From an uncultured Mycoplasmatota bacterium (GTDB taxonomy: Bacteria; Bacillota_I; Bacilli_A; RF39; UBA660), in assembly GCA_947305065.1 (NCBI GenBank), contig CAMZCT010000002.1, positions 1 through 64,000 on the forward strand: a DNA stretch of 64,000 bases, given 5' to 3'. Shown here piece by piece: positions 47,478-50,413 of this stretch; the stretch's first letter is position 1, and every line of letters begins with the position of its first letter. A model generated the notes under the pieces. The model saw only the letters and a program-made list of their open reading frames with translations. It was not told where the DNA came from and made no database searches. Position numbers and translations under genes: made by a program.

Positions 47478-48443
47478 CTATTTTAATAGCTGTCTTATTC
47501 TATCTTCGTCTTTGAATCCATTTTCATTATAAATTTCTTTAGCAAGTTTTTGAGGAATTCCACGCTTAACTAAGTCTTGGATATAGCGTTCCATTTCTTC
47601 ATCGGTATCAGCATCTAAAAAATCTATTCCTGATATTATTTCTAAAGCAAGAATTGAAAAGGAAGATAAAGATCTTTCATATTCTCTTCGACAAAAACTA
47701 TCTGAATAATAAGTACTTATACCATCTAAATCTATTATTTGTGGTTCCAAATTATAATCTAATATAACATTAGATTCTTTCTTACTAAAAGGTAGTAAAT
47801 CATTTTTTTGGGCTAAAGTAACAGGATATATATTATTTTCATATAATTCTTTTAGTTTTAAATACAATTTTTTTAACACCTCTTTACGTTTACTCAAAGG
47901 AAAATATGAAAGAGCATAGATTCCAAATACTGAATTATATCTTTTATAAACGCAACCAACTAATCTACCGTCTACTTTAATTAGTTTTTGAGGAAGGTTT
48001 GTATATTTTACTTTTTCTTGCTTTTCAATTGCTTTTAAGATAGCATCCTCACGATTAAGTATTACCCCATCACCATCGATGTAATTAATAGGTTTATTAT
48101 TTATTCTTGTTCCTCTATGTCTTAATTCTTTAGGGTCTCTAATGTTAACTTCTTCAGCGTCTAATACGCCATCTTCTTCTATTTTTATAGAATCTGATGT
48201 ATTATGATATATTTTATAAACTTCTTTAGAATTAACTCCATAAACTTTTCCATCTACACCAGAACCTATTTCTTTTTTTCTTCTTACTATTTTATCAAAT
48301 TCATCTTTTGTTAATTCTATTATATTTCCCACTTCTTTAGAATTAACTCCATAAACTGTTCCATCTACACCAGAACCTAATTTTTTTTTTCTACTTTTTA
48401 TTTTATCAAATTTACCTTTTGTTAATTCTATTATATTTCCCAT
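47478..48443 (-). CDS. Atypical protein-kinase-like protein with duplicated glycine loop
   Basis: This 321-residue soluble protein has the look of a eukaryotic-type or aminoglycoside-kinase-like fold. A glycine loop GSGVDGKVYGV is followed by a Lys in VYKIYH. A partial catalytic segment has AQKNDLLPFSKKESNVILD, and IIDLDG stands in place of DFG. The canonical HRD is degenerate. The first 37 residues after Met, including the glycine loop, are duplicated in tandem by a 111-bp repeat. The second copy continues into the kinase core. A weak promoter (TATAAT at 48473-48468) and the RNA A terminator precede it. The substrate is unknown. Confidence 0.65.
   Translation of the reverse strand: MGNIIELTKGKFDKIKSRKKKLGSGVDGTVYGVNSKEVGNIIELTKDEFDKIVRRKKEIGSGVDGKVYGVNSKEVYKIYHNTSDSIKIEEDGVLDAEEVNIRDPKELRHRGTRINNKPINYIDGDGVILNREDAILKAIEKQEKVKYTNLPQKLIKVDGRLVGCVYKRYNSVFGIYALSYFPLSKRKEVLKKLYLKLKELYENNIYPVTLAQKNDLLPFSKKESNVILDYNLEPQIIDLDGISTYYSDSFCRREYERSLSSFSILALEIISGIDFLDADTDEEMERYIQDLVKRGIPQKLAKEIYNENGFKDEDRIRQLLK
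48219..48440. repeat. 111-bp tandem in-frame duplication
   Basis: Units 48330-48440 and 48219-48329 encode GNIIELTK...GVNSKEV twice with a few substitutions (GTV/GKV, KL/EI). The divergence of several codons shows the duplication is not an assembly stutter of identical sequence. Confidence 0.9.
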
Positions 48444-48579
48444 ATTTATTCACCCTTATGTGTGTTTATTATAAAACAATTAATGAGGAAATAAAAGATA
48501 ATTATATAATTTTTTTAGCATTTTTATAATTTTTAATTATAGATAAAGCCTTATATATAACTTATTGTTTTTTCAACAA

Positions 48580-48942
48580 CTAAAAAAATATGTTGTGAAC
48601 AACATATTTCTTTAGGTGGCAAAGTTGTCATACCTCTCGTATACTGACAAATATTACTTGAGGTTCCTGTCAAAAGCGCCACATTCCGGAATACTTAATA
48701 GTTTGACAAGAAAGTTTAAAATCACTAATTTAGTCATTAGCTAGAAAGTACTGAGTTTTTTCCAATGAGGACCATTTGCATCATTGAGACGCCTCCCAAC
48801 AATGAACAGCACCACTCATATATATGGGGCCACCTTTCCTTTTAAAAAGGGTTTTTATAACAGTAATAAAGGTTATCTACGACAGTATACACCGTCATAA
48901 AAGGATTTCATTACATAAATAAAACACTCTATACTATTAAGT
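48580..48942 (-). ncRNA. Structured non-coding RNA A, family unknown
   Basis: This is a predicted transcript of about 360 bases with no plausible reading frame. It runs from a sigma-A promoter to a strong terminator. The 5' ATACTTAATAG (48944-48934) can pair perfectly with CTATTAAGTAT (48701-48691), closing a domain of about 240 bases. That domain contains a GAC/GTC hairpin (48881-48896). The 3' domain is closed by GTGGC (48682-48678) with GCCAC (48620-48616). Inside it TTGTC-AGT-ATAC pairs with GTAT-GACAA around a GAGAG loop, which is complementary to an upstream CCTC. It does not match tmRNA, RNase P, SRP, 6S or T-box signatures. It is 137 bases before the kinase-like gene, so a leader role is also possible. 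Confidence 0.55.
48582..48609 (-). terminator. Terminator of RNA A
   Basis: A perfect 11-bp stem (AAATATGTTGT at 48586-48596 with 48599-48609) and a run of seven T on the minus strand. Confidence 0.88.
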
Positions 48943-48948
48943 ATCTTT

Positions 48949-48977
48949 ATTATACTATTTATTATTTTTTAAGTCAA
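48949..48977 (-). promoter_or_regulatory. Promoter of RNA A
   Basis: TTGACT (48977-48972), a 17-bp spacer and TATAAT (48954-48949) on the minus strand. The predicted start is near 48942. Confidence 0.8.
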
Positions 48978-48998
48978 TTGACATTTGTGTAAAAGTAA

Positions 48999-49310
48999 CA
49001 AAAAAAAAGACATATTATCTGTCTATAATATGCCTATTTCTGTAGCGTTAATTAACTATAAAACAGTGACAGTTGTTATATAGTTTCTCACCAAATGCTA
49101 CAATACACGTATATACTTAATAGCTTGATAAGATACAGATTTAACGATTAATATAAATTATTAACCTCAGTAACGAATATCTTAAATATAATATTAAGTA
49201 ACGAGTTACAAAATAAAAATAATAAGATATATATATAGCAATAAAGATAAAATAAATACGAGATTTAAAATATAAAAATTACTACATAAATGTCACTCAT
49301 ACTATTAAGT
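48999..49310 (-). ncRNA. Structured non-coding RNA B, paralogue of RNA A
   Basis: This predicted transcript of about 310 bases lies upstream of and in tandem with RNA A. It starts with the same ATACTTAATAGTAT (49312-49299) and GAGTG..TTTATGTA. It has the same internal CTATTAAGTAT (49123-49113), again 11 bp perfectly complementary to the 5' end. The 3' domain is closed by TGTAGC (49102-49097) with GCTACA (49046-49041), different bases from RNA A but the same place and pairing. Inside is AACTATA (49085-49079) paired with TATAGTT (49060-49054). The middle is far more AT-rich than in RNA A, with a GTAAC/GTTAC hairpin. No reading frame and no recognised family. Confidence 0.5.
49000..49034 (-). 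terminator. Terminator of RNA B
   Basis: The minus strand reads GGCATATTAT, a 6-base loop, ATAATATGTC (10 bp with one G-U), then nine T. Confidence 0.88.
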
Positions 49311-49316
49311 ATCTTT

Positions 49317-49345
49317 AGTATACTATTTATAATAATTATTGTCAA
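49317..49345 (-). promoter_or_regulatory. Promoter of RNA B
   Basis: TTGACA (49345-49340), a 17-bp spacer and TATACT (49322-49317) on the minus strand, 40 bases after the stop of the HD gene. The spacer ends and the bases after the -10 box match the RNA A promoter, showing duplication of the whole unit. Confidence 0.8.
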
Positions 49346-49384
49346 TCACAAAAGAAGGAATAGTTGTCAAGTAATCAACACTTA

Positions 49385-50413
49385 TTAATTAATAGTTTTA
49401 ATACTTTTAACAAATCCATACCCTGTATCTTTGTAATCATCTATTTCCTGGTATATATCTCGAGCTTCGCTTGATAAGTTTGTAATTCTATCAATAGTAC
49501 CATCTTTTTGTAATAGTGGTATAGTATTTCTTTTTTTGGTTTCTATATGAACACAAAATCTATCATCGACAGGATTAGCACTAGTTAAAACTTTTGTTGC
49601 ACTTCTAAATAAAGGCCATGATTTAAAGTTTGAAGAGAAAATTCTAATTAATTCGGATTCTGATTTGGTATAGAGATCATCTAAAGTTATTATTCTATTA
49701 TTTATAGCTAATTTTATTAATTCAGATAAATACATCGTTACGTATTTATTTCTTGCGCTTTGTAGCTCTTTGGCATATGTTGAAACAACCTTGGCAAAGT
49801 TAATACATTGTTCTTCATCTATGAAACCTATTTCATTTATACCATCTTCATTTACTAAAAGTTTCATACTATCATAAATATTTTTAATAGTATCTAAAGT
49901 ATGTGTTTGAAGCCATATATATCCTGTATGTAAAACGCCATCAAGACGGTCTGTACATAATCTTGGAGTTTTGTTTTCAAGTATTGGGCAATCACTTAGA
50001 TTACTTACTTCTTCTATTTCAATACCATCTCTTTTTAATAAGCTTTTCAGCTTATTATCTTTAACTATTACATCACGTAAGTATTGTTCGGACTTTTCTT
50101 GATTTAGATAATCACCAAAGTAATAATCTATAGTATGAGCAAAGCAAGGAGTTTTATGATCGTGTAAAACCGCTTTAATAGTTTCGATTTTGTCATGACC
50201 GAAATGCCAAGTCATATGAGCTACTATATCGCTATGATTATAACGAGTATACTTAGCTCTTGTATTATATATTTTAGTATAATCACAACCACAGAACTGT
50301 GTATCTCCTTGTAATCTTTTTAAAGTACTAGTAGCTAAATATTCATCAATAAAGGATGGATATTCTTCTTTATCAACAAATATAGATTTGTAATCTCTTA
50401 TTATTTGACTCAT
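49385..50413 (-). CDS. HD-domain phosphohydrolase (SAMHD1/dGTPase-like)
   Basis: This 342-residue soluble protein has RYNHSDIVAH (His60) and AVLHDHKTPCFAHTID (His84, Asp85, His93). This follows the RxxHS and LHDxxxxPFSH pattern of SAMHD1/dGTPase-type HD enzymes. A later Asp in CTDRLDG near 155 could be the fourth metal ligand. Members remove triphosphate or phosphate from nucleotides; the substrate here is not known. It lies 23 bases after fhs with an AGGAGG site and is probably cotranscribed. RNA B's promoter starts immediately after its stop codon. Confidence 0.78.
   Translation of the reverse strand: MSQIIRDYKSIFVDKEEYPSFIDEYLATSTLKRLQGDTQFCGCDYTKIYNTRAKYTRYNHSDIVAHMTWHFGHDKIETIKAVLHDHKTPCFAHTIDYYFGDYLNQEKSEQYLRDVIVKDNKLKSLLKRDGIEIEEVSNLSDCPILENKTPRLCTDRLDGVLHTGYIWLQTHTLDTIKNIYDSMKLLVNEDGINEIGFIDEEQCINFAKVVSTYAKELQSARNKYVTMYLSELIKLAINNRIITLDDLYTKSESELIRIFSSNFKSWPLFRSATKVLTSANPVDDRFCVHIETKKRNTIPLLQKDGTIDRITNLSSEARDIYQEIDDYKDTGYGFVKSIKTIN

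Follow-up and report, generated by a model that had tools for sequence, protein, structure and literature searches.

Paralogous RNA genes with a covarying 3' fold and a variable palindrome: a candidate family of RNA homodimers in uncultured Mycoplasmatota

The window analysed here, a stretch of 64,000 nucleotides from the genome of an uncultured Mycoplasmatota bacterium of the gut, carries two neighbouring genes, RNA A and RNA B, which by sequence comparison are paralogues within one little-known structured RNA family. Their products look like untranslated, structured transcripts of about 310-360 nt made from independent genes. The best explanation of the whole, which we judge to be fairly probable, is that these independent structured RNAs would form homodimers through a palindrome and carry a functional 5' domain. 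The palindrome, the pairing of the 5' end in helix P1, a contact between a hairpin loop and the terminator, and the link to PGK RNA were all absent from the initial annotation.

Two adjacent RNA genes and their relatives

The minus strand (window coordinates) is the coding strand of both RNAs, and the strand of the initial annotation has to be corrected accordingly, by the promoters at 48977-48949 (A) and 49345-49317 (B). Both promoters are strong, near-consensus elements with 17-nt spacing. B comes first and is followed by A with its own promoter, the pair being flanked by open reading frames at 50413-49385 and 48443-47478. Each RNA ends in a hairpin followed by a T run; a generic terminator scan gave no match at A or B, because that scan demands three G-C pairs. 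The individual elements are as follows.

49317-49345 (-): promoter of RNA B, TTGACA-17-TATACT (promoter sequence)
49000-49311 (-): RNA B, whole transcript (start inferred from promoter; fold, orthologues)
49302-49312 (-): P1 of B, 5' strand ATACTTAATAG (P1 covariation; alignment of B orthologues)
49124-49132 (-): pseudoknot of B, 5' strand CTTATCAAG (RNAalifold; pair counts)
49113-49123 (-): P1 of B, 3' strand CTATTAAGTAT (P1 covariation; alignment of B orthologues)
49103-49114 (-): palindrome of B, ATATACGTGTAT, with one kind of G-U pair (p 0.447 alone; family evidence)
49097-49102 (-): closing stem of B, 5' strand TGTAGC (run test; RNAalifold)
49087-49095 (-): pseudoknot of B, 3' strand TTTGGTGAG (RNAalifold; pair counts)
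49054-49085 (-): inner hairpin of B, AACTATA.AACA ... TGTT.TATAGTT (pair counts; alignment)
49068-49072 (-): loop CTGTC of B, predicted to contact the terminator loop (pair counts, helix 4)
49041-49046 (-): closing stem of B, 3' strand GCTACA (run test; RNAalifold)
49000-49035 (-): terminator hairpin and T run of B, loop GACAG at 49019-49023 (pair counts)
48949-48977 (-): promoter of RNA A, TTGACT-17-TATAAT (same element upstream of relatives)
48582-48943 (-): RNA A, whole transcript (start inferred from promoter; fold, orthologues)
48934-48944 (-): P1 of A, 5' strand ATACTTAATAG (P1 covariation; alignment of A orthologues)
48702-48710 (-): pseudoknot of A, 5' strand CTTGTCAAA (RNAalifold; pair counts)
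48691-48701 (-): P1 of A, 3' strand CTATTAAGTAT (P1 covariation; alignment of A orthologues)
48683-48692 (-): palindrome of A, ATTCCGGAAT (p 0.007 on its own)
48678-48682 (-): closing stem of A, 5' strand GTGGC (run test; RNAalifold)
48666-48674 (-): pseudoknot of A, 3' strand TTTGACAGG (RNAalifold; pair counts)
48632-48664 (-): inner hairpin of A, ACCTC ... GAGGT, with TGTCA in the loop at 48645-48649 (orthologues)
48626-48630 (-): TGACA of A, possible partner of the TGTCA loop in A-type RNAs (invariant)
48616-48620 (-): closing stem of A, 3' strand GCCAC (run test; RNAalifold)
48582-48609 (-): terminator hairpin and T run of A (pair counts; orthologues)

Folded singly, A and B reach z scores of -4.14 and -3.65, and none of 100 shuffles of either folds as well. 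Neither RNA shows signs of coding; the four A orthologues differ by indels of one and other lengths, so a protein product is unlikely. The reading frame next after RNA A (47478-48443, minus strand) opens with a repeat, in which GSGVDG.VYGVNSKEV occurs two times.

When 59 genomes, including that of the window, were searched at the DNA level, RNA A turned up in three more members of the genus, in each case with a B-like promoter stretch next to it. The search also gave many short matches to the promoter and first nucleotides, a pattern present in several copies per genome. In a named genome collection the exact promoter pattern occurs in 13 stretches, one of them in Candidatus Coprovivens excrementavium. 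No phage or plasmid relative was matched, either with one exact pattern or in the other searches, which used RNA A only. Two models were built, R1 for the 3' region from 22 sequences and R2 from 43. R1 matched at least 25 of 291 genomes of the window's taxonomic family, and R2 at least 13 of the 15 genomes of the window's genus (E up to 0.1), at least 44 of 385 genomes of the order and at least 4 of 395 of the class, the latter two sets lying wholly within the same family. These figures are lower bounds, since in genome searches over 40 genomes few candidates (8-14) were scored per genome.

R2 finds five copies in the window's genome: A, B, C2:91684, C2:105003 and C3:97257. Among the 15 genomes of the genus, G000, G007, G010 and G012 have five matches each and most other matched genomes have one; the five-copy genomes are a lineage-specific expansion. 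A further locus of the window's genome (L063, G000:C2:141700-142900) holds two more RNAs, with promoters at C2:142275 and C2:142804. They have the promoter, P1 and terminator common to the family and the palindromes GCGATCGC and, at 18 nt, ATATTGTGTACACAATAT; their bodies are different and give no R2 match, and similar RNAs occur in L066, L071 and L079. These are probably further branches of the family. Another match to the promoter pattern (L077, G009:C68:1-500) lies ahead of GGTGGTACCACG and a reading frame similar to aminoacyl-tRNA synthetases, an element that, we presume, resembles a T-box leader.

Covariation of the 3' domain

The initial annotation had proposed that A and B, as paralogous RNAs, share a compensatory 3' domain, and comparison with the relatives bears this out. 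In a first alignment, unguided RNAalifold settled on the pseudoknot helix plus the terminator, with two-sided changes. Pairs were counted over 80 aligned matches (one row is an antisense artefact, leaving about 79 relatives) in four helices: the pseudoknot, the inner stem, the terminator stem and a loop-loop contact. The model to which the alignment was fitted contains the first three of these; the loop-loop contact lies outside it. Over the four helices and 80 rows, standard pairs fill 94.0% of cells, versus 65.7% when shuffled and 36-51% when slid; 29 of 30 pairs show two-sided changes, and the covariation score is 0.731 versus 0.207 in shuffles. Counted over these four helices, the shared domain passes the deep-alignment covariation check that had been put forward with the proposal.

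The loop-loop contact joins the inner hairpin loop to the terminator loop in B and most relatives, so that there the terminator would belong to the fold. Of its cells 94.4% are paired, and two-sided changes occur in 5 of its 6 pairs. The first of these is CG in 64 members, AU in 1 and UA in 1, the third GC in 71 and AU in 2, and the fourth UA in 60 and AU in 13. The terminator loops of A and its three orthologues are without GACAG, and all four A-type RNAs have an invariant TGACA directly after the inner stem. This TGACA may replace GACAG as the partner of the TGTCA loop, a pairing that the initial annotation had named as an alternative for A; being constant among the four A-type RNAs, the TGACA/TGTCA pairing is neither supported nor excluded.

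P1, in which the 5' end of the transcript pairs with CTATTAAG, covaries among 43 members, with C-G replaced by G-C in 6 and A-U by G-C in 3; its strand pairs include CTCAATAG/CTATTGAG (L068), CTTGATAG/CTATCAGG (L064) and TCTAATAG/CTATTAGA (L119).

The closing stem was counted apart. The strings given for it lie where they had been placed, GTGGC/GCCAC of A at 48678-48682 and 48616-48620 and TGTAGC/GCTACA of B at 49097-49102 and 49041-49046, and many relatives keep the stem with different bases (TGTGAC/GTCACA, AGCAGC/GCTGCT, TTGGGA/TCCCAA, TGCGAC/GTCGCG, GGTGGA/TCCACC, AAGTGG/CCACTT). RNAalifold predicts it in separate four-sequence alignments of A and of B. A run test gave a modest excess, the mean longest run being 5.06 versus 4.44 with partners shuffled (200 shuffles, maximum 4.76); it covered all 79 members including a PGK-like subtype, in which the stem was not seen and which therefore dilutes the test. 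Covariation supports the predicted P1, pseudoknot, closing stem, inner hairpin and loop-terminator contact.

Other details of the proposed domain have to be redrawn. In the hairpin TTGTC..ATAC/GTAT..GACAA suggested for the inside of A, the TGTCA/TGACA part is kept in all four orthologues and the inner part is broken in two of the three others; the inner stem found here instead changes on both sides, from ACC/GGT to GCC/GGC, in two of the four. Neither of the small pseudoknots suggested is conserved: CTC/GAG of A forms part of the inner stem, while in B GTGA falls in a strand of another, conserved pseudoknot and TCAC partly coincides with the loop opposite the terminator.

The palindrome and its possible partner

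Just 3' of P1, nearly every member carries a palindrome. In A orthologues it is ATACCGGTAT, and relatives have others, such as GTATGCGCATAC, AAACACGTGTTT, AATATACGTATATT, ATGTAATTACAT, ATAGTATACTAT, TTGCATGCAA, TATGATCATA and ATATAGCTATAT. Over 76 distinct windows the strict palindrome averages 9.4 nt, versus 4.8 in dinucleotide shuffles; it reaches at least 10 nt in 45 windows (1.7 expected) and at least 12 nt in 27 (0.4 expected). As a control, 5.2% of 757 other 30-nt windows from 43 of these RNAs reach 10 nt. These counts are of sequences and not of evolutionary events, except in the set of 28 clusters formed after the palindrome had been excised, of which 22 have at least 8 nt (1.9 expected) and 14 at least 10 nt (0.4 expected). 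Fourteen of the 76 fall below 8 nt when read strictly, and 13 of those reach 10 nt if G-U pairs are allowed, as the palindrome of B, which falls short of significance by itself, requires; palindromes of this kind are common by chance. Of the 62 longer palindromes, eight are of the GTATATAC type, which lies off the usual centre and overlaps the end of P1.

Across relatives 21 different central 8-mers occur, and in these 62 palindromes the central dinucleotide is CG in 23, TA in 19, AT in 13 and GC in 7. Adjacent bases of one RNA chain cannot pair with each other. The palindrome covaries even at its two central, adjacent bases, and from this we infer homodimerization. An internal partner was ruled out, as a second copy of the central 8-mer occurred in the same RNA in 0 of 62 cases. 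The pattern therefore suggests that each RNA pairs with a second copy of itself.

Other readings of the palindrome and of the RNAs have to be set against this one. It could function at the DNA level, bound by a dimeric protein, or form a simple hairpin, with no contact between RNAs; the binding sites of such proteins are palindromic, and a hairpin of 3-4 bp with a four-base loop is feasible for several of the palindromes. However, a hairpin leaves its loop unconstrained, yet in windows picked after the palindrome had been noticed the spacer between four-bp arms is itself self-complementary in 27 of 41 cases where it has four bases and in 45 of 56 where it has two. A single protein would keep one sequence where 21 central 8-mers are seen, and the palindrome keeps nearly the same position in molecules that elsewhere covary as RNA, so that we consider this reading quite unlikely. 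It is very unlikely, in our estimate, that the main role of the palindrome is to link different paralogues or to base-pair with other RNAs of the cell. Cross-pairing among B and the copies at C2:92 kb, C2:105 kb and C3:97 kb is indeed about as good as self-pairing, but A, whose palindrome is the only clearly private one in the window's genome, pairs poorly with the other four (-4.6 to -9.3 versus -15.9 kcal/mol with itself), and most genomes outside the window's subclade, where each search gave one match (a lower bound), still have palindromes.

The RNAs might also be cis-regulatory leaders, in which the fold senses something and the terminator, tied to it by the loop-loop contact, attenuates the next gene. 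Rfam classes PGK RNA (RF03040) as Cis-reg, the terminator participates in the fold, and among the downstream reading frames, called mechanically for 59 of 79 members, 47 are on the same strand, many of them 40-140 nt past the terminator. On the other side, the remaining 12 are on the opposite strand and what follows B is A, with its own promoter. Downstream genes are diverse, and one common regulated gene was rejected over the 59 scored; recurring groups are mostly among close relatives, and the two that span genera are an opposite-strand group (L099/L125/L126) and a transporter-like one (L110/L116/L133). A leader would also have no need of a palindrome that covaries at adjacent bases. We regard the leader reading as unlikely and, because no common downstream gene is found and 12 of 59 neighbours lie on the opposite strand, take the RNAs to be independent genes.

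For independent homodimeric RNAs we propose the following mechanism. The 5' end of the transcript would pair in P1 with a strand near the 3' end, and the pseudoknot and closing stem would organise the 3' domain. The palindrome beyond P1 would then pair with its counterpart in a second copy of the RNA, and a duplex of about 10-14 base pairs would hold the resulting dimer, which would have two-fold symmetry. The 5' domains differ between A and B and the core is conserved, which suggests a dimeric platform with variable effectors. The least certain steps are that the 3' core would be this platform and that the 5' domain would carry the specific function of each paralogue, probably through the binding in trans of a protein or of a different RNA. 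The putative role that we favour is that of a dimeric RNA scaffold.

PGK RNA and other structured RNAs

Several known RNAs invite comparison. RNase P was ruled out by the lack of a model match, its class B gene lying elsewhere (C3:53042), and so were tRNA and tmRNA. OLE, ROOL and GOLLD are, like A and B, large structured bacterial RNAs, and the raiA motif RNA is a structured bacterial RNA of similar size class; A and B match none of their Rfam models. In retroviruses, a short RNA palindrome, the dimer initiation site, drives homodimerization; there it lies in a loop and serves the packaging of a viral genome, and no common descent with A and B is implied. Section 8 of PMC12286853 names retroviral dimerization, reports raiA RNA as a monomer, and describes symmetric contacts with a covarying palindromic core in OLE and GOLLD. 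A predicted symmetric contact with a covarying palindrome is likewise found in the A/B family, and our case for homodimers uses the same adjacent-base argument as is applied there to OLE and GOLLD (PMC12286853). By comparison, A and B carry their palindrome as a linear stretch next to P1 that is longer and varies far more, and their dimer is putative.

Functional RNA oligomers are described in a passage of PMC7357161 as rarely observed in nature, and one of PMC12286853 gives OLE, ROOL and GOLLD as recent exceptions. Few natural RNA homodimers have evolutionary support. A literature search for palindromic homodimers of bacterial noncoding RNA with covariation found no paper, and another gave no title on this RNA family among the matches listed. 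The 21 forms of the central eight bases across relatives make self-recognition testable by palindrome swaps.

The closest known family is PGK RNA, whose source is reportedly a 2017 paper; our literature search for PGK RNA, PGK motif or RF03040 found no paper. The Rfam model is 92 nt long and leaves the palindrome unpaired. A and B were rejected as PGK RNA, and as members of any Rfam family: they have no Rfam match at the gathering cut-off, and the PGK model gives none in 48400-49420 up to E 10 and none in the window's own genome. Elsewhere the model passes its cut-off in L169 (58.1 versus 50.8 bits) and falls below it in L166, L168, L171 and L175, and R2 finds all five of these places; the two models also match the same place in G221 and G279. 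In the taxonomic family it has matches in 45 of 291 genomes, with 30 above cut-off; it also matches 5 of 296 genomes of the class, all in that family, and 0 of 14 control genomes.

PGK loci resemble A and B in having the same kind of promoter, P1-like strands and a palindrome, often ACAATTGT and in other loci different. Their terminator loop TTATCAG stands opposite the loop CTGATAA. A palindrome of 8 nt or more occurs in 24 of 30 loci, and in 22 the loops are exactly complementary over 6 nt; several of the misses have no T run inside the stretch examined. Of the pseudoknot helix, hairpin and inner stem that the PGK RNA model spans, the helix CUUAUC/GAUAAG has its equivalent in the covarying pseudoknot helix of A and B. 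The GAGAAAG..CUC hairpin that follows the palindrome in L165-L171, L173 and most PGK loci is absent from A and B, which have the TGTGGC-type closing stem in its place. The inner stem of PGK RNA carries a conserved CUGAUAA loop; an inner stem is present in A and B, with the loop UUGUCA in A and CUGUCA in B. Given the shared promoter, P1-like strands, palindrome and loop-terminator contact, PGK RNA appears to be the 3' core of a sister subtype that shares the architecture of the A/B family.

Taken furthest, the whole family would be homodimers in which a linear palindrome serves as an evolving self-recognition code and the terminator hairpin is built into the fold by the loop-loop contact; RNA A and paralogues of that kind would avoid cross-dimers by switching palindromes, and PGK RNA would be a family fragment misfiled as a leader. 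To this combined reading we attach roughly even confidence. If it is true, the orphan Rfam family PGK RNA would turn from a leader fragment into an independent RNA gene, with boundaries given. PGK RNAs also occur in tandem about 315 bases apart, like A and B (G128:C62:14745 and 15060; G251:C26:5757 and 6069).
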